DNA from: Oribacterium sp. WCC10
GTDB taxonomy: Bacteria > Bacillota > Clostridia > Lachnospirales > Lachnospiraceae
Length of the DNA: 64,000 nucleotides
Assembly (NCBI RefSeq): GCF_900113415.1
Contig: NZ_FOPH01000002.1
Span: forward strand, 124,001 to 188,000
Direction: 5' to 3'
Shown: piece after piece, positions 13,553 through 21,549 of the stretch
Numbering within the stretch: position 1 is the first letter of the stretch
How the letters are laid out: every line of letters starts with the position of its first letter
Notes under the pieces: model-generated
Told to the model about the DNA's origin: nothing
Databases searched by the model: none
What the model saw: only the letters and a program-made list of their open reading frames with translations
Program-made: the position numbers and the translations under genes

Positions 13553-14000
13553 TTGTCTCTGCTTTATATCTATATATGTCAAGAGCTCTTACAAGGGGAG
13601 AAAAAAGAACTCTTACTAAGTATATGTTAAACGGTCATGCTGGATAGGAACAATAAGTATAAAACTGTTGATATCATACGCATATGCGACCGTTGTTTTT
13701 GAAGGGGGCTCCGAAGTGTATTACAACTCCGGAGTATGAGTATGAAAAGCTTTTTTTGTGTTACATCTCTGTAACTGTTTATATGATACCCAAGTTATGT
13801 GACTGAATTATGTCTCATAGCTTAAAGAAGTCTAAAATTTATAAAGAAATAATAAATACGACGTACTATTTATGAAGAACTGCATATGTAAAATCTTAAG
13901 AAGATGAAATGAAGCAGGGACGATAATGTTCCGGAATATACATGTTACAAAAATATCAATAGACTCTTTACAGACGTTGACAAATCTGTTAACGTATTTA
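13553..14000. other. 450-bp AT-rich gap upstream of the kinase gene
   Basis: No convincing ORF on either strand. It holds a short hairpin (CTCCG at 13709-13713 with CGGAG at 13730-13734), a TTGACA at 13978-13983 and a GTTAAC palindrome at 13988-13993. I cannot place a well-spaced -10 box for the TTGACA; the region is presumably the promoter region of the sugar cassette. Confidence 0.4.
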
Positions 14001-14016
14001 TGTCAACCGATTAACA
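14001..14016. promoter_or_regulatory. Predicted LacI-family operator upstream of kinase gene
   Basis: TGTCAACCGATTAACA is an imperfect palindrome with a central CG and matches 12 of 16 positions to its own reverse complement. It shares the pattern TGTYAANCGRTTRACA with the site at 16973-16988. It lies 34 nt upstream of the kinase start. The gene for a LacI-type regulator at 20.6 kb is the natural candidate to bind it (inference). Confidence 0.72.
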
Positions 14017-14050
14017 TATTACAACATATGTTAGGAGAAAGAAAAAAGAA

Positions 14051-15034
14051 ATGAATAAAAACTATAAGAAAATCAATAAGTCAACGACCAATTATGCTGA
14101 GGAACTCCTTAAGGTTCTTCCATGGGAAGCAAAGGAGGTTCCTGCAGAGATTCCTCACGGCGATATGCCGGGAGATAAGATTGAGATAGACGATTCTCAT
14201 GTTCAGAAGGCAAACACTATTTTTTCTGTTCTTGCAAAGGAAATAGCAGAAAAGATTAAAACAAATCCATATCAGCGTACAGTCATAAGTGTATGTGGTG
14301 GTTCAGGCGTAGGAAAATCAGAGATAGCTTCTGTTCTTGGCTGGTTCCTCAATCAGGCAGGGATAGGTACATATATTCTTTCAGGAGATAACTATCCTCA
14401 TCGTATTCCTATGTATAACGATGCTGAACGTCTTCATATCTTCCGAGAGAGTGCTGTTAGGGGCATGGTTGATGCAGGCGATTATACTGACGAAAGATTC
14501 GCTGAGATCAGAAAGTGGCAGCAGGAGGATACAGATGCTGACAAGGCTCATGCAGAGGGTAAAGAATGGTTTATGTCATATCTTGCGGGAGGTCGTGAGG
14601 GACTGTCGGGTTATCTTGGTACTCCAAACGAAACCGATTTTGATGAGGTAAGCACTATTATCAGCGCATTCAAGGATGGAGCGGCTGATCTTTGGCTGAG
14701 ACGTATGGGAAGAGATGCATCAAGTCTCTGGTATGACGAAGTTGATTTCTCTGATAAACAGGTACTTATCATAGAGTGGACACATGGAAACAGTGATTTC
14801 CTTAAGGGAGTGGATATCCCGGTTCTTCTTAACAGTACACCTGCCGAAACTCTTGCTCACAGAAGAGCGAGAAACCGTGACGGAAAGACAGATAGCGCAT
14901 TCACAACCATGGTTCTTGAAATTGAACAGGCAAAGCTTCACAGTCAGGCTCATAAGGCGAAAATTATCTGTGCCAAGAATGGTGAACTGATAAGCTTTGA
15001 TGAGTATACCGAGCGAATGAAGGATCAGTTCTGA
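14051..15034 (+). CDS. P-loop kinase of unknown substrate, sugar-cassette associated
   Basis: A 327-residue P-loop NTPase. The Walker A motif CGGSGVGKSEIA lies at residues 82-93 after an 80-residue N-terminal extension, followed by the GIGTYILSGDNYPHRIP segment, reminiscent of the acceptor-binding region of uridine-kinase/phosphoribulokinase-like or adenylylsulfate-kinase-like enzymes, and a second strand VLIIEWTHGNSDFLKGVDIPV that resembles their Walker B/lid region. No sulfate-assimilation genes are near. It sits directly upstream of a GH13 phosphorylase and downstream of a predicted LacI operator, so a sugar, polyol or sugar-acid released by the phosphorylase is a likelier substrate than adenylylsulfate (inference). 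ATG 14051 follows AGGAGA; a perfect 10-bp palindrome (AACATATGTT, 14023-14032) precedes that site. Confidence 0.72.
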   Translation: MNKNYKKINKSTTNYAEELLKVLPWEAKEVPAEIPHGDMPGDKIEIDDSHVQKANTIFSVLAKEIAEKIKTNPYQRTVISVCGGSGVGKSEIASVLGWFLNQAGIGTYILSGDNYPHRIPMYNDAERLHIFRESAVRGMVDAGDYTDERFAEIRKWQQEDTDADKAHAEGKEWFMSYLAGGREGLSGYLGTPNETDFDEVSTIISAFKDGAADLWLRRMGRDASSLWYDEVDFSDKQVLIIEWTHGNSDFLKGVDIPVLLNSTPAETLAHRRARNRDGKTDSAFTTMVLEIEQAKLHSQAHKAKIICAKNGELISFDEYTERMKDQF

Positions 15035-15067
15035 TCATTCTGAAGTTTTTAGAATGAGTAAACTTTG

Positions 15068-15102
15068 GCGTAGCACATTGCACTTGAGTGTTTGTGCTAC
15101 GC
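15068..15102 (+). terminator. Intercistronic hairpin between kinase and phosphorylase genes
   Basis: A perfect 10-bp stem (GCGTAGCACA at 15068-15077, TGTGCTACGC at 15093-15102) with a 15-nt loop and no U-tract. It is more likely an mRNA-stabilising or processing hairpin between cotranscribed genes than a terminator. Confidence 0.55.
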
Positions 15103-15132
15103 ATAACTATATCTAGATAACAGGAGTATTAA

Positions 15133-16797
15133 ATGGAGAAACATTATACAGATAACGGTCCTATGCTTAATGCTTATCCTGATAGTATGGGCGGACGTCT
15201 CAGTGATGTTGTAGGTTTTCTTGAGAAGCCTGAGATGAAGGATGCATTTCAGTCTTTCTACATTCTTCCGAGTATTTTCAATACAGACCTTGATAGAGGA
15301 TTTTCGGTTATTGATTACAATATTAATCGTGAACTTGGAAGCGAAGAAGATCTTGAAAGACTCAGAAATCTTGGGGTTAATCTGAAACTTGATTTCATAC
15401 TTAATCATGCTTCGGTTCTTTCACCACAGTTCCAGGATCTCATCAGAAATGGTGAGAATTCAAAGTATGCTGATTTCTTTATCAACTGGAATAAGTTCTG
15501 GGATGGAAAGGGTCAGATGACTGAGGAGGGCTATATTCAGCCGGATGAAGAGTATATCAAGGATATGTTCTTCCGCAAACCGGGTCTTCCTATCCTTATG
15601 GTTCGCACTCCGGGCGGTAAGGATGTACCATATTGGAACACCTTTTATCAGGAGGTAATCTATAAGCGTCCTGATGCTATGGATCTTATGAGCGCTATGG
15701 ATATTCAGTATCTTAGTGCAGAACGTATCTGTGAAATTGTGAATACTGCTCTTGATGAGGGCAAAAAACCTTCAGAGATCGATCTTTCGGGTTATGAGGA
15801 TTATCGTGATAAGGTTGTGGATTATCTTGAATCCAACCGCAAGTATCTTGGACAGATGGATCTCAATGTTAAGTCCCCTCTCGTTTGGGAGCATTATGAG
15901 AATACATTGAAGGCTCTTTCTGACTATGGTGCATCTATTGTACGTCTTGATGCGTTTGCCTATGCCCCTAAGGAGCCTGGTAAAAAGAATTTCATGAATG
16001 AGCCTGATACATGGGATTTGCTTTCTAAAGTGCGTGAGCTTGCGGATAGATATCACGTGACGCTTCTTCCTGAAATTCACGCAAGCTACGGTGAGAAGGT
16101 CTACAAGAAGGTTGCGGACATGGGATACATGACTTACGATTTCTTTCTTCCGGGTCTTCTTATCGATGCAATTGAGAAAAAGAGCGGTAAGGATCTTGCG
16201 CGTTGGGCTAAGGAGCTTGTGGATGACAAGATTCGTACAGTAAATATGCTTGGCTGCCATGATGGTATACCTCTTCTTGATCTTAAGGGGTTGCTTCCTG
16301 AGGAGGAGATTCAGAATCTTATCGATACCATAGTTGGAAGAGGTGGACTTGTAAAGGATCTTCATGGTAAGAAGAATATGTATTATCAGGTCAATGCTAC
16401 CTACTTTAGCGCTCTTGGCGAAGATGAACGCAAGATGCTTCTTGCGCGTGCGATTCAGATGTTCATGCCTGGTAAGCCACAGGTATGGTATCTTGATCTT
16501 TTTGCCGGTAAAAATGATCATGAGGCGGTCAAGTCTGCCGGACCTGCCGGACATAAGGAGATAAACCGTACCAATCTCAGCCTTAAGGATATGGAAGGTA
16601 GACTGACTTCAGACATAGTATCTAGGCAGGTAGAAATGCTTAGGTTCCGTAACACCTGCCCTGCATTCGGCTTTGATGCAGAGTTCGCTGTTGACAGTGA
16701 TGGTACAAAGATGTCTATGACATGGAAGAAGGACGGTCATACAGCTTGCCTTAAGGTGGATTTTTCGGATTACAGTTATGAGATTTCATCAGATTAA
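15133..16797 (+). CDS. Sucrose phosphorylase-type GH13 enzyme
   Basis: A 554-residue member of the sucrose-phosphorylase group of GH13, which cleaves glucosides with phosphate to give alpha-glucose-1-phosphate. Catalytic residues are visible: the nucleophile Asp in SIVRLDAFAYAPKEPG, the acid/base Glu in LLPEIHASYGEKVY and the transition-state Asp in LGCHDGIPLLDL. The QVNATYFSALG and PGKPQVWYLDLFAGKND motifs are typical of the group. It is longer than classic sucrose phosphorylases (about 480-505), with extra sequence at about residues 150-250 before the nucleophile domain. Related enzymes act on sucrose, sucrose-6F-phosphate, glucosylglycerol or glucosylglycerate, so specificity is open. No signal peptide, hence cytosolic, working behind the ABC importer downstream. 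ATG 15133 follows CAGGAG. Confidence 0.85.
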   Translation: MEKHYTDNGPMLNAYPDSMGGRLSDVVGFLEKPEMKDAFQSFYILPSIFNTDLDRGFSVIDYNINRELGSEEDLERLRNLGVNLKLDFILNHASVLSPQFQDLIRNGENSKYADFFINWNKFWDGKGQMTEEGYIQPDEEYIKDMFFRKPGLPILMVRTPGGKDVPYWNTFYQEVIYKRPDAMDLMSAMDIQYLSAERICEIVNTALDEGKKPSEIDLSGYEDYRDKVVDYLESNRKYLGQMDLNVKSPLVWEHYENTLKALSDYGASIVRLDAFAYAPKEPGKKNFMNEPDTWDLLSKVRELADRYHVTLLPEIHASYGEKVYKKVADMGYMTYDFFLPGLLIDAIEKKSGKDLARWAKELVDDKIRTVNMLGCHDGIPLLDLKGLLPEEEIQNLIDTIVGRGGLVKDLHGKKNMYYQVNATYFSALGEDERKMLLARAIQMFMPGKPQVWYLDLFAGKNDHEAVKSAGPAGHKEINRTNLSLKDMEGRLTSDIVSRQVEMLRFRNTCPAFGFDAEFAVDSDGTKMSMTWKKDGHTACLKVDFSDYSYEISSD

Positions 16798-16826
16798 ACT
16801 ATTTGCTTTTTAAGCATTCACTATGC

Positions 16827-16864
16827 ATACCGCCAAACCGAAAAAACGGTTGGCGGTATTTTTG
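16827..16864 (+). terminator. Intrinsic terminator after phosphorylase gene
   Basis: A 13-bp stem with one bulged A (ATACCGCCAAACCG against CGGTTGGCGGTAT), 6-A loop and a TTTTTG tail. It separates the kinase-phosphorylase unit from the transporter promoter. Confidence 0.9.
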
Positions 16865-16929
16865 TACAAAAAAACGCACAAAACGCCTATGCAAATATTG
16901 CACAATATACACAAAAATGTGTTATACGA

Positions 16930-16958
16930 TTGACAGAAATTGTGAAAAGCGTTATATT
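16930..16958 (+). promoter_or_regulatory. Sigma-A promoter of the ABC importer operon
   Basis: TTGACA (16930-16935), 17-bp spacer, TATATT (16953-16958). Transcription should start near 16965, eight or so bases before the predicted LacI operator. Confidence 0.82.
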
Positions 16959-16972
16959 CACATCAAGTTAAG

Positions 16973-16988
16973 TGTCAAACGGTTGACA
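16973..16988. promoter_or_regulatory. Predicted LacI-family operator just downstream of the importer promoter
   Basis: TGTCAAACGGTTGACA is palindromic at 14 of 16 positions with a central CG. Its position right after the predicted start of transcription fits repression by steric block. It shares its pattern with the 14001-14016 site. Confidence 0.82.
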
Positions 16989-17040: not shown

Positions 17041-18420
17041 ATGAAAAAGAGCATTAACAGATTGGCTGCTTTACTTATGACAGCAGCTTGTGTAAGTTCA
17101 CTTGTAGCATGTGGCGGTAGCACAAAGACAGAGACCGCTACAACAGCAGCTGCGGCAGAAGGAACAACTGCAGCCGCAGAGAGCAAAGAGGCTGTAGCAC
17201 CTACAGAGAAGTCAGACCTTGCAGGGCAGTCTATCACAATCCTTAACTCAAAGGGTGAGATTCAGACAGCACTTGAAGAGCTTGCAGCAACTTTTACAGA
17301 AGAGACAGGAATCGAGCTTGAGGTTCTCAGCTGTGGTACCGGTGAAGTTCCTTACACAAAGGTTACTTCAATGTACAGCTCAGGAACGGCTCCAACCATG
17401 TCAATACTTGATACAACTGATGTTATCGCACTTGCAACAGAGTATGGTCTTGACCTCAGTGATCAGGATTGGATTCAGTATTGCGATAGTATGACAACCA
17501 AGGTTGACGGTAAGGTATACAGCTTCCCGTTCTGCGTTGAGGGAAGAGGTATCATTTATTCAAAGAAGGCTATCGAGGATGCTTTAGGAAAAGAGTTTGA
17601 TCCTGCAAGCATCAACTCACTTGATTCTTTCAAGGCTATATGTGAAGAACTTAGAGCAGCCGGTATGGAGAATCCTGTAGTTCTTTCAAAGGAAGACTGG
17701 TCACTCGGAGCTCATCAGCTTGGTTATATCTATGATACAAATGATGGAACAACAGCAGGCGCTGACAAGATCATGGCAGCTCTTAAGGATGGTTCACAGA
17801 AGGTTGAAGATTATGACCGTTTCAACCAGTTCATGGATACAATGGATGTTATCCTTGAGTATAACTATAATAAGGAAGATCCGCTTGGTGCTATCTATGA
17901 TGAGGATGCTATGCATCTTGTAGATGGTGATGCAGCATTCTGGCCTAACGGTAACTGGGCTTGGCCAAACATCGAGACAGCAGGTGCAACAACAGATGAT
18001 GAGTTTGGTTTCATCTCATTCGTACTTGGTAATGATACAGCTGATTTTGCAAACACATCAATGCAGGCTTCTCCTACAAAGCAGCTTATGGTAGACGCTA
18101 AGCAGTCAACACCTGAGCAGCAGGCAGCAGCACTTGAGTTTATCAACTGGCTCGTAAATTCAGAGTCAGGCCAGAAGGGTCTTGTTGAGAAGCTTCAGAT
18201 TATCCCTGCATGCTCAAATAACACTGTAGCTCCTCTTGATCCTCTTAGCCGTGATATCGTTGCAAAGATGGCTGACGGACATACATATTCATCAAGCTTT
18301 GTAGCTCCTTCAGACCATTGGTCAGTAGTGGGTGCTATCATGCAGAAGTATGTAGCAGGTGAGACAGACCGTGCAGGTGCAGCATCTGAGATCGATGCTT
18401 ACTGGCAGAAGCAGGCATAA
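17041..18420 (+). CDS. ABC sugar transporter, solute-binding lipoprotein
   Basis: A 459-residue family 1 extracellular solute-binding protein. The signal peptide ends in a lipobox (LVAC, lipid-modified Cys24), followed by a Thr/Ala/Glu linker and then the mature domain (SITILNSKGEIQTALEELAA, then the hinge segment WPNGNWAWPNIETAG and the MQASPTKQLMVDAK segment). It should be anchored to the outer face of the membrane and deliver a carbohydrate to the permeases at 18.6 and 19.5 kb. ATG 17041 follows GAAGAGGAG. Its promoter carries a predicted LacI operator. The context points to an oligosaccharide or glucoside cleaved by the cytosolic phosphorylase; the ligand cannot be read from sequence. Confidence 0.92.
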   Translation: MKKSINRLAALLMTAACVSSLVACGGSTKTETATTAAAAEGTTAAAESKEAVAPTEKSDLAGQSITILNSKGEIQTALEELAATFTEETGIELEVLSCGTGEVPYTKVTSMYSSGTAPTMSILDTTDVIALATEYGLDLSDQDWIQYCDSMTTKVDGKVYSFPFCVEGRGIIYSKKAIEDALGKEFDPASINSLDSFKAICEELRAAGMENPVVLSKEDWSLGAHQLGYIYDTNDGTTAGADKIMAALKDGSQKVEDYDRFNQFMDTMDVILEYNYNKEDPLGAIYDEDAMHLVDGDAAFWPNGNWAWPNIETAGATTDDEFGFISFVLGNDTADFANTSMQASPTKQLMVDAKQSTPEQQAAALEFINWLVNSESGQKGLVEKLQIIPACSNNTVAPLDPLSRDIVAKMADGHTYSSSFVAPSDHWSVVGAIMQKYVAGETDRAGAASEIDAYWQKQA

Positions 18421-18611: not shown

Positions 18612-19502
18612 ATGAATTCTCTGGGCCGGACTACCGGTGATAAAATTAAAAGTTTTCTTATGTTTGCACTTCCGGGGACATTTGTCTTCGTATGTGTTGT
18701 TATCATTCCGTTCCTTTACGGATTTTATCTGACATTTACGGATTGGAACGGTGTAGCTGCTGTAAAGAATCTTGTGGGATTTGATAACTATAGGGCGCTT
18801 GCCCAGGATAAAGAATTCTGGAAATCCATGGGACTTACATTGAAGTACGTTGTTCTTTCTGTTCTTCTTGTAAATGCATTTGGCTTCCTTTTTGCATATT
18901 TCCTATCCGGAAGAATTAAAAAAGGACAGAATCTTTTCCGTGCAGGTTTCTTTACACCTAACCTCATCGGAGGAGTAGTTCTCGGATTCATCTGGCAGTT
19001 TGTTTTTTCTCAACTTCTTGTAAAGTTTGGAAAAAGCCTGGGTATAGCTTTGTTTTCGAAGTCATGGCTGTCCGATCCAACAAAGGCCTTTTGGGCACTT
19101 GTTATAGTAACTGTTTGGCAGCTCAGCGGTTATATGATGCTTATCTACATCGCAGGTTTTACGGGACTTTCTGAGGATGTTCTTGAAGCTGCTTCCATAG
19201 ACGGAGCACATGGCTGGTCAAAAATGCGCCATATCGTACTTCCTCTTATGGTGCCTTCATTTGTTATCTGTATTTTCCTGACTCTCTCGAGAGCATTCAT
19301 GGTTTATGATATTAACCTTACATTGACAGGCGGAGAGCCTTACGGAAGTACAAGACTTGTTGCGATGCATGTTTATGAAAAGGCATTTACAGCAAGACAG
19401 TACGGCATAGGACAGGCAGAGGCGGTTTTCCTCTTCTTCGTTGTTGCCGTTATCTCAGGTCTGCAGGTATATATCGGTAAGAAACAGGAGGTAGAGGCAT
19501 GA
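18612..19502 (+). CDS. ABC sugar transporter permease (MalF/UgpA-like)
   Basis: A 296-residue inner-membrane permease with about six TM helices. The cytoplasmic EAA loop that docks the ATPase reads VLEAASIDGAHGWSKMRHIV followed by LPLMVPSF. The N-terminal segment GTFVFVCVVIIPFLYGFYLT is TM1. It pairs with the next permease to form the channel. ATG 18612 follows AGAAAGG. No ATPase gene is in the cassette, so a shared MsmK/MsiK-type ATPase encoded elsewhere must energise it (established for many Gram-positive importers; inference here). Expression is downstream of the structured RNA element. Confidence 0.93.
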   Translation: MNSLGRTTGDKIKSFLMFALPGTFVFVCVVIIPFLYGFYLTFTDWNGVAAVKNLVGFDNYRALAQDKEFWKSMGLTLKYVVLSVLLVNAFGFLFAYFLSGRIKKGQNLFRAGFFTPNLIGGVVLGFIWQFVFSQLLVKFGKSLGIALFSKSWLSDPTKAFWALVIVTVWQLSGYMMLIYIAGFTGLSEDVLEAASIDGAHGWSKMRHIVLPLMVPSFVICIFLTLSRAFMVYDINLTLTGGEPYGSTRLVAMHVYEKAFTARQYGIGQAEAVFLFFVVAVISGLQVYIGKKQEVEA

Positions 19503-20401
19503 TGAATGCTAAGGAAAATGTTTCCGCTGCAAATCTTGAACCAAAGGCTCAGGATCGTGTTGGTGGAACAAAAAAACTTGTCAAGGATATATGCATCTAC
19601 ATTCTTCTTATCATCGGTGCATTATTCTATCTTGTTCCATTCTTTATGGTTATAGTAAACTCCTTTAAGCAGAAAAAGGATATCATCAAGGCACCTATGG
19701 ATCTTATCGGAGCCGGTGGTATGAGTCTTGATAACTATGGAAAGGCATTTAAACAGATGGAGTTCATGAAAGCCTTCGGAAACTCTCTCTTTATCACAGG
19801 CCTTTCAACAATTGCAGTTATTGTATTATCTTCTATGGTGGCATATTATATCGTTCGCGCAAACACCAGTCTTGCCAAGGTGATATTTGCACTTATGATT
19901 TCATCGATGATTATACCGTTCCAGTCAATCATGATACCCTTGGTTTCTATTTACGGCGCAAATCTCGGACTGCTTAACCATCGTTTTTCATTAATATTCA
20001 TGCATACCGGTTTTGCCATGAGTATGTCGGTGTTTATGTATGCGGGATTTTTGAAGAGTGGTGTTCCGAGATCATTGGAGGAAGCTGCATATATTGACGG
20101 ATGTACGAAGATGGAAACTTTCAGAATGATTGTATTTCCTCTTTTGAAACCTACTACTGCAACACTTGTAATTCTTAATGCGATGCAGTTCTGGAATGAC
20201 TATCTGCTTCCGAGTCTTGTTCTTGGAAAGAAACCGTTATATACACTTCCGCTTTCAACTTACAGCTTTTATGGAACATACAGCTCGGATTACGGTCTCA
20301 TTATGGCTGCACTTGTACTTACACTTCTTCCTATCCTTATTCTGTACTTCTTCTTACAGAAGCAGATCATTGCAGGTATGGTAGCCGGAGCCGTTAAGTA
20401 A
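19499..20401 (+). CDS. ABC sugar transporter permease (MalG-like)
   Basis: A 300-residue second permease of the carbohydrate importer with six predicted TM helices. TM1 is YILLIIGALFYLVPFFMVIV and the EAA loop is EEAAYIDGCTKMETFRMIVF with PLLKP. It overlaps the upstream permease stop by 4 nt (ATGA); GGAGG at 19487-19491 serves ATG 19499. It is followed after about 85 nt by a terminator that closes the operon. Confidence 0.93.
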   Translation: MMNAKENVSAANLEPKAQDRVGGTKKLVKDICIYILLIIGALFYLVPFFMVIVNSFKQKKDIIKAPMDLIGAGGMSLDNYGKAFKQMEFMKAFGNSLFITGLSTIAVIVLSSMVAYYIVRANTSLAKVIFALMISSMIIPFQSIMIPLVSIYGANLGLLNHRFSLIFMHTGFAMSMSVFMYAGFLKSGVPRSLEEAAYIDGCTKMETFRMIVFPLLKPTTATLVILNAMQFWNDYLLPSLVLGKKPLYTLPLSTYSFYGTYSSDYGLIMAALVLTLLPILILYFFLQKQIIAGMVAGAVK

Positions 20402-20485
20402 TTGGTTAAAAACACTTAAAATTAATTATTTTCAATGTTATATTTCTGTATTTTGCGGAAAAACATAGGAACTATAGTATAATAA

Positions 20486-20513
20486 AGCCGGACATTTGAG
20501 ATGTCCGGCTTTT
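20486..20513 (+). terminator. Intrinsic terminator of the ABC importer operon
   Basis: A perfect 10-bp stem (AGCCGGACAT at 20486-20495, ATGTCCGGCT at 20501-20510) with a TTGAG loop, followed by T residues. Confidence 0.92.
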
Positions 20514-20568
20514 GTGTTATACTGCTAGTTCATGACTAGAAAAACGATAATAGTAAAGGGAATAGAAT

Positions 20569-21549
20569 ATGGCAACAACATTAAAAGATGTGGCAAAAGA
20601 GGCCGGACTGGCAGTGGAGACTGTTTCCAGAGTTCTGAATAACAGAGGATATATAAGCGAGAAGACCAGAAAGAAGGTTAATGACGCCATGCAGAAGATA
20701 GGCTACAGGCCTAACATTGTTGCGAGAACCCTCTCAAAAGGAAGATCTGATGCGATTGCTGTCATTGTTCCGCACATGGTCCATCCGTATTTTTCGCAGA
20801 TGTTAAGCGAGATAGAGCAGTATGCGGCAGAAAAGCAGTACCAGATATTTATCAGCAATTCTACAGGTGATCTTCAGAAGGAAACCAGTATTCTTGAATT
20901 ATGTGAGAACAGTCTTGTGGCAGGAGTACTGATATTCAGCAGACGGGTTAAGCCGGAGATACTTAAAAAGTTCAATCTTCCTATTATTACGATTGAGCGA
21001 TTCATTGAAGGCGGAACAGGCTGTGTCCTTTGCGATAACTATAAGGGCGGACAACTTGCTGCAGAGGAGCTCATTAAAAAGGGATGTAAAAATCTCCTGA
21101 TGCTTGGAAGCGTATGGCAGAGCAAGATGCCTGCGGATGTGCGTGAAGACGGATTCATGGATGTCTGCCGTAAAAACGGAGTAAATGCAAAAGTACTCAC
21201 CAGTAATGCTTTTGAATACGAGGAAATGGAGTATCATGAGAGTATAAGAAAAGCATTGAATGAGTTTCCTGATACAGACGGCATATTCTGCAGTTCGGAT
21301 CTGATTGCGGCCCAGGTTCTGCAAGTGGCTTCGATGATCGGAAAGAAAGTCCCGGAGGATCTCAAGATTATTGGCTTTGATGATACACAGTTATCAAGAC
21401 TGACCACACCTCAGCTCACAACCATACATCAACCCATCAGGGAAATGGCAAGGCTTTCTCTGGATATGATATTTGATACATTGGAGAATAAGGAAGTAAC
21501 AGAGCGAAATGTTCTTGATGTAAATCTCGTTGTGAGGGGAACTACTTGA
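20569..21549 (+). CDS. LacI-family transcriptional regulator
   Basis: A 326-residue repressor with the LacI helix-turn-helix at residues 2-48 (TLKDVAKEAGLAVETVSRVL, then the hinge GYRPNIVARTLSKGRSDAI) and a periplasmic-binding-protein-like ligand domain (VIVPHMVHPYFSQMLSEIEQ; then KIIGFDDTQLSRLTTPQLTT). It follows the importer operon in the same direction but behind a terminator, with its own AAAGGG site before ATG 20569. By position and because CG-centred palindromes are typical of this family, it most likely controls the sites at 14001-14016 and 16973-16988 (inference). The effector is probably the imported sugar or its breakdown product. Confidence 0.93.
   Translation: MATTLKDVAKEAGLAVETVSRVLNNRGYISEKTRKKVNDAMQKIGYRPNIVARTLSKGRSDAIAVIVPHMVHPYFSQMLSEIEQYAAEKQYQIFISNSTGDLQKETSILELCENSLVAGVLIFSRRVKPEILKKFNLPIITIERFIEGGTGCVLCDNYKGGQLAAEELIKKGCKNLLMLGSVWQSKMPADVREDGFMDVCRKNGVNAKVLTSNAFEYEEMEYHESIRKALNEFPDTDGIFCSSDLIAAQVLQVASMIGKKVPEDLKIIGFDDTQLSRLTTPQLTTIHQPIREMARLSLDMIFDTLENKEVTERNVLDVNLVVRGTT

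Follow-up and report, generated by a model that had tools for sequence, protein, structure and literature searches.

A predicted LacI-family sucrose regulon in Oribacterium sp. WCC10 with shared operators at a kinase-phosphorylase unit and an ABC importer

LacI-family sucrose regulons of the ScrR, CscR and SuxR groups, as far as the available part of PMC4052901 describes them, have a regulator gene adjoining its targets and an even palindromic operator with a central CG, placed 30-140 bp before the start codons of sucrose transport and phosphorylase genes; the targets named are phosphorylases, hydrolases, fructokinases, permeases and phosphotransferase systems (PTS), but no sucrose kinase paired with a sucrose-6F-phosphate phosphorylase, and autoregulation occurs in over three quarters of local LacI regulators. 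A sucrose kinase beside a strict sucrose-6F-phosphate phosphorylase and an ATP-binding cassette (ABC) importer is known from the Rgaga1 locus of R. gnavus (AgaSK and RgSPP; available parts of PMC6521584 and PMC7688924), where kinase and alpha-galactosidase form one fusion protein and araC is named as the upstream regulator gene. Here, we analysed a stretch of 64,000 nucleotides from Oribacterium sp. WCC10 (contig NZ_FOPH01000002.1, positions 124,001 to 188,000; hereafter the window) that holds a kinase-phosphorylase gene pair, a sugar ABC importer and a LacI-family gene. A first-pass annotation of the window had claimed two shared operators through which this LacI protein would control both the enzymes and the importer. 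Like the ScrR, CscR and SuxR regulons, the locus has the regulator next to its predicted targets, an even operator centred on CG and sites at comparable distances from start codons of transport and phosphorylase genes, the enzymes here being of the sucrose kinase and sucrose-6F-phosphate phosphorylase types; unlike them, it has no operator that we could see before lacI. In contrast to Rgaga1, its kinase stands alone, its regulator belongs to the LacI family and its genes form two units that share operators.

The two 16-mers are present at 14001-14016 (TGTCAACCGATTAACA) and 16973-16988 (TGTCAAACGGTTGACA), both on the + strand, and each matches the consensus TGTYAANCGRTTRACA without a mismatch, as the first-pass annotation had stated. 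Both are even palindromes centred on CG, with complementary bases in six of eight pairs in the 14001 site and seven of eight in the 16973 site. From sequence comparison they are very probably binding sites of the neighbouring LacI repressor (20569-21549, + strand; PF00356 with 71.6 bits and PF13377 with 106.5 bits), and we hold with high confidence that this protein controls a local sucrose regulon composed of the kinase-phosphorylase unit, the importer and an unlinked unit with a HAD phosphatase and a PTS. Instead of many random places, the consensus has two exact matches in the whole 3.64-Mb genome, precisely these two promoter sites, compared to 0.065 expected per 3.64 Mb under a first-order Markov model of the window. 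Since the consensus was derived from the two sites themselves, the low expectation is weak as proof, and other genomes provide the independent and decisive test.

Seventeen genomes of the genus were searched with thresholds of E<=1e-60 for LacI orthologs and E<=1e-40 for the kinase. The LacI ortholog was found in eight of them (G000, G004, G005, G006, G007, G011, G013 and G015), and exact sites occurred in all eight and in none of the other nine (Fisher p 4e-5, without correction for relatedness), while a reversed-pattern control gave no exact match in any of the 17 genomes. The kinase showed the same distribution (8/8 versus 0/9; in G015 the gene is in two pieces, each at a contig end). Both operators stand at orthologous places in all eight LacI-bearing genomes with 15 of 16 columns invariant; the 16973 operator is the most conserved 16-mer of the importer promoter (median 16-mer identity there 0.80) and the 14001 operator that of the kinase promoter, tied with overlapping windows (median 0.63). 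Because regulator, sites and enzymes travel together in the genus, solely a test at the level of the family separates the regulator from the cassette.

For this purpose 299 Lachnospiraceae genomes were drawn, 21 of which carry a LacI protein passing E<=1e-75; the 20 proteins from outside the own genome share 42-52% identity with the LacI of the window. The exact palindrome TGTYAANCGNTTRACA was found in 10 of the 21 LacI-bearing genomes and in 6 of the 278 without, the reversed control matching in 6 of 299. Among the six exceptions, G265 (locus L119) has the site between a sub-threshold LacI gene (42% identity) and a sucrose phosphorylase gene, and in G220 it has fragments of a LacI relative nearby, yet lies within a reading frame resembling GH32 by eye; the remaining four showed no match to a cassette protein within 1.5 kb of the palindrome. 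A solute-binding gene could be identified at 13 of the 20 LacI loci from outside the own genome, and site positions were counted there: with up to two mismatches allowed, 22 sites fell between -500 and +60 of the estimated start of that gene (7,280 bp), compared with 6 over the remaining 200,614 bp. Kinase-phosphorylase loci of other genera were fetched from 20 (L148-L167) of the 22 non-own kinase-matching genomes, leaving out G078 and G104. None of these 20 loci has the operator at up to one mismatch, and six have a different LacI-family gene nearby (24-33% identity). The site-less kinase-phosphorylase loci together with the sites upstream of importers therefore indicate that the motif tracks this regulator and its importer and not the kinase-phosphorylase genes. 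The recognition helix, LAVETVSRVLN, has V17, E18 and R22 by LacI numbering, the valine presumably corresponding to Tyr17 of LacI. By hand count, sites with at most one mismatch accompany 15 of 16 family loci with Val17 and none of four with Thr or Ala (Fisher p 0.001, uncorrected for relatedness). Paired sites in other genera are spaced between 35 and 279 bp apart; their helical phases, worked out by hand, do not agree, and DNA looping is not claimed. The proposal that one LacI protein co-controls enzymes and importer is thus supported by the co-occurrence of site and ortholog, by the conservation of the operators and by the same motif in other genera.

The importer promoter pointed out in the first-pass annotation was also confirmed: TTGACA and TATATT with a 17-nucleotide spacer (16930-16958, + strand; 11 of 12 consensus bases) lie just 5' of the main importer operator at 16973, the centre of which is about +15 from the inferred transcription start and 60.5 bp 5' of the importer ATG. 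The putative kinase promoter (13967-13995, + strand) consists of TTTACA (13967-13972), 17 nucleotides and TAACGT (13990-13995) with an extended TG; a consensus promoter scan did not list it and it was drawn from conservation, the elements TTTACA, TG, TA and GT being invariant in all eight aligned genus sequences. The 14001 operator begins 5 bp 3' of this putative -10 element and is centred 42.5 bp from the kinase ATG, and transcription of the unit may start at about 14002, inside the operator. A weaker second importer site, overlooked in the first-pass annotation, is a probable auxiliary operator (16920-16935, + strand; TGTTATACGATTGACA, one mismatch); its right half contains the importer -35 box, its centre is 53 bp 5' of that of the main operator, and a counterpart with up to two mismatches exists at exactly this spacing in all eight LacI-bearing genomes of the genus. 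In the same intergenic stretch a hairpin (ATACCGCCAA/TTGGCGGTAT) with a T-run, perhaps the terminator of the phosphorylase gene, was seen 3' of that gene (16827-16865); the terminator scan did not list it.

A regulon confined to the cassette, as first proposed, holds as far as both operators are there but is too narrow, since a third unit elsewhere carries the same kind of site. In the own genome a one-mismatch site (C33:83520-83535) lies just 5' of a Cof-type HAD phosphatase gene, which is followed by a gene for a PTS enzyme II (EII), and in G004, G011 and G013 the exact sites that fall beyond the cassette are also just 5' of a HAD phosphatase gene and a PTS EII gene. HAD orthologs were found in 13 genomes of the genus, of which eight have an upstream match of 15 or 16 out of 16 positions and the other five at best 10-12. 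The site precedes the HAD gene in 7/8 LacI-bearing genomes versus 1/5 without LacI (Fisher p 0.03); for this reason the earlier finding probably understates the regulon, to which, judging from the sites, the HAD-PTS unit very probably belongs. The sucrose IIBC model gives the PTS of the own genome 499.5 bits, under its cut-off of 559.3, and the C33 stretch also holds an amylase-family gene, PTS enzyme I and a ScrK-like fructokinase that is below its cut-off.

Counts that admit mismatches have to be read against their controls. Over the 17 genus genomes, 37 places match with up to one mismatch (19 exact, 18 with one) versus 15 for the reversed control; in the own genome, up to two mismatches give 36 counts on both strands versus 15, the two-mismatch matches having been partly inspected. 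As one-mismatch matches number 18 against 15 in the control, a single such site counts solely through its location. One of them in the own genome (C36:90370) was put down to chance, since the downstream gene was unmatched in the family search and no counterpart was traced in relatives. Another one-mismatch sequence, TGTTAAACTATTAACA, with TA at its centre, is identical in three related genomes (G005:C19:51129, G006:C4:33390 and G007:C11:92347).

The gene pair under the 14001 operator encodes, as classified from sequence, an enzyme of the sucrose-kinase type followed by a sucrose-6F-phosphate phosphorylase. The first gene (14051-15034, + strand) encodes a P-loop sugar kinase of 327 amino acids with the Walker A motif GGSGVGKS, of the type found in the C-terminal part of AgaSK. 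A Pfam search returned no family for it, with weak similarity to the APS-kinase model; it shares 37% and 35% identity with the C-terminal parts of the open reading frames (ORFs) at L166 and L167, both of which have Melibiase (GH36) domains, and the likeness to AgaSK was drawn via these relatives and not from the R. gnavus sequence itself. The second gene (15133-16797, + strand; 554 amino acids) encodes a GH13_18 phosphorylase whose nearest structure is PDB 6S9U (570.1 bits, the next being 261.1; 57% identity over 433 aligned residues), described in the available text of PMC6720575 as the I. coccineus sucrose-6F-phosphate phosphorylase. All nine residues checked against 6S9U are conserved: the catalytic D223, E264 and D327, common to GH13_18 as a whole, and R152, K364, K373, Y377, Q378 and K434 of the acceptor site and loop A (I. 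coccineus numbering). The window phosphorylase and 6S9U both have the KXXYYQ loop A that, in the available part of the review PMC7178133, marks the strict sucrose-6F-phosphate type; unlike 6S9U, the window enzyme has about 50 residues (query 176-228) without counterpart in the alignment. On the NCBIfam model sucrose_gtfA it scores 314.4 bits, under the 334.4 cut-off for sucrose phosphorylase (EC 2.4.1.7).

At all 20 loci of other genera the kinase relative is directly 5' of, or fused to, such a phosphorylase, and KXXYYQ is present in 18, missing in L151 (cut by a contig end) and L164. Kinase and phosphorylase form one ORF at four loci from four genera (L151 1-1977, - strand; L159 5219-7594, -; L160 574-3027, +; L164 4392-6893, -), and at two loci, L166 and L167, the kinase follows a GH36 alpha-galactosidase in a single fusion, which is the AgaSK arrangement (available part of PMC7688924); single fusions may reflect assembly errors. 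At L155 (5699-7864, - strand) the kinase domain was observed behind a beta-lactamase-family (PF00144) domain, directly 5' of the phosphorylase gene. According to the available text of the two sources, the AgaSK product is given as sucrose-6-glucose-phosphate (PMC7688924), and sucrose-6F-phosphate may arise through PTS phosphorylation or have an origin not known at present (PMC7178133). The phosphorylase next to the kinase, by contrast, requires sucrose-6F-phosphate. The one-ORF fusions and the gene order suggest that this kinase family likely hands its product straight to the phosphorylase, i.e. that it makes sucrose-6F-phosphate.

The importer comprises a solute-binding lipoprotein (17041-18420; PF13416, 72.2 bits) and two permeases with PF00528 (18612-19502, resembling GlcT/UgpA/MalF, and 19499-20401, resembling GlcU/UgpE/MalG, each below the cut-offs of those models), all on the + strand. 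Between importer and lacI lies a terminator-like hairpin (20484-20512, + strand), seen in the sequence scan and in the genus alignment, and directly 5' of it a -10-like GTATAAT is invariant in all eight genomes (window 20470-20515). As for the sugar, eight of the 20 family LacI loci carry a phosphorylase of a second type, 34-38% identical to the window enzyme; the three that were run on NCBIfam all pass the sucrose phosphorylase cut-off, and four of the eight have the exact ordinary loop motif. Because of these second-type phosphorylases and the scores of the three, sucrose is the best guess. Taken together, we somewhat favour a phosphorolytic sucrose pathway, primed by ATP, whose kinase would phosphorylate the fructose side, giving sucrose-6F-phosphate, contrary to the published 6-glucose assignment for AgaSK, and in which, in Oribacterium, a shared module of regulator, operator and importer would have swapped an ordinary sucrose phosphorylase for the kinase-phosphorylase pair.

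Other explanations of the two 16-mers and of the sugar were weighed against these data. The regulator might act as described on another alpha-glucoside or on a sucrose-containing oligosaccharide such as raffinose, as the two kinase relatives fused to a GH36 alpha-galactosidase, the maltose-binding protein as best solved relative of the importer and the third-unit PTS under its sucrose cut-off would suggest; but no alpha-galactosidase gene lies between kinase and lacI, the stretch to which this search was confined, the residues of the phosphorylase are those of the strict sucrose-6F-phosphate type, and the motif is paired in some relatives with an ordinary sucrose phosphorylase, which makes a different sugar unlikely. 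The sites could also belong to another LacI-family protein, the genome having eight such genes (seven paralogs), or to a CcpA-like global regulator, so that their nearness to this lacI would be accidental. The paralog on contig C6 shares Val17 and adjoins a GH32 gene and an importer; it was rejected as binder of the cassette sites, however, because its importer carries its own twin palindrome. These twin palindromes, ATGGAACCCGTTCCAT, stand at L090 9177-9190 and 9251-9266 (G000, contig C6), 5' of another sugar importer, which is accompanied by a LacI gene of its own and a GH32 gene, and are probably the operator of that paralog. Binding by a different protein is also made very improbable by the way the sites track this LacI over the 17 genus genomes and the family draw, and by two exact genomic matches where many would be expected of a global regulator. 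In Cre sites the half-site is shifted by one base relative to this motif, which further counts against a CcpA-like binder. Finally, an accidental resemblance between two AT-rich stretches of promoter DNA would be in line with a consensus built from the two sites and with the lack of an excess in the window at up to three mismatches (7 observed, 10.3 expected); it is scarcely credible given sites kept at orthologous places in eight genomes, no exact match in genus genomes without LacI, and the motif 5' of importer genes in other genera.

Several observations weigh against the LacI regulon as we propose it. Within the genus, regulator, sites and kinase occur together and the genus test cannot tell regulator from cassette. 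Within the family, the exact site is absent from 11 of the 21 LacI-bearing genomes, many of which have sites with one or two mismatches, and one-mismatch matches in the genus have no clear excess over the reversed control; G169 has this LacI together with a kinase-phosphorylase pair on another contig without the site. The C6 paralog has Val17 as well and seems to use another operator; Val17 alone is insufficient for specificity because the importer of that paralog has a different twin palindrome. No autoregulatory site was found near lacI at up to three mismatches or in the alignment of the eight genomes. The left half of the auxiliary importer site is variable and degenerate, with 9 of 16 columns invariant in eight genomes, and its conservation may in part be that of the -35 box. 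In the own genome, the third unit is assigned through a one-mismatch site; G015 has the LacI but no HAD site (best match 12 of 16), and G008, a genome 73% complete, has a HAD site (L196, contig C82, position 16762) and no LacI at E<=1e-60, which may be due to missing sequence or to a site remaining after loss of LacI.

In the regulon model, the sites, their conservation, the co-occurrences, gene families and residues are computed; from them we infer binding, repression rather than activation, the effector and the pathway with its flux. A LacI dimer would bind the 16-bp CG-centred palindrome, at the kinase-phosphorylase unit over the presumed transcription start, at the importer unit just 3' of the start with a weaker site over the -35 box, and at the unlinked HAD-phosphatase/PTS unit at one upstream site. 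LacI would block these promoters when sucrose is absent and would be released by sucrose or by a phosphorylated form or derivative of it. Sucrose imported by the ABC transporter would then be phosphorylated by the kinase with ATP, and the phosphorylase would convert sucrose-6F-phosphate and phosphate to glucose-1-phosphate and fructose-6-phosphate.

The predicted regulon is of an ordinary kind, a local regulon of the LacI family in the sense of the available part of PMC4052901. The string 'Lachnospir' is absent from the text of that paper and 'LacI' from the text of PMC6521584, and among the open-licence papers searched we found no published LacI regulon for a pair of sucrose kinase and sucrose-6F-phosphate phosphorylase. 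What appears to be new is the content of the regulon, the apparent exchange of enzymes under a shared module of regulator, operator and importer and the question of regiochemistry that the kinase raises. The route through sucrose kinase and sucrose-6F-phosphate phosphorylase would thereby gain a predicted regulator and operator, and one pair of regulator and operator would be common to several genera while the enzymes beneath it differ. The source of sucrose-6F-phosphate becomes testable, as gene order and one-ORF fusions point to the neighbouring kinase.

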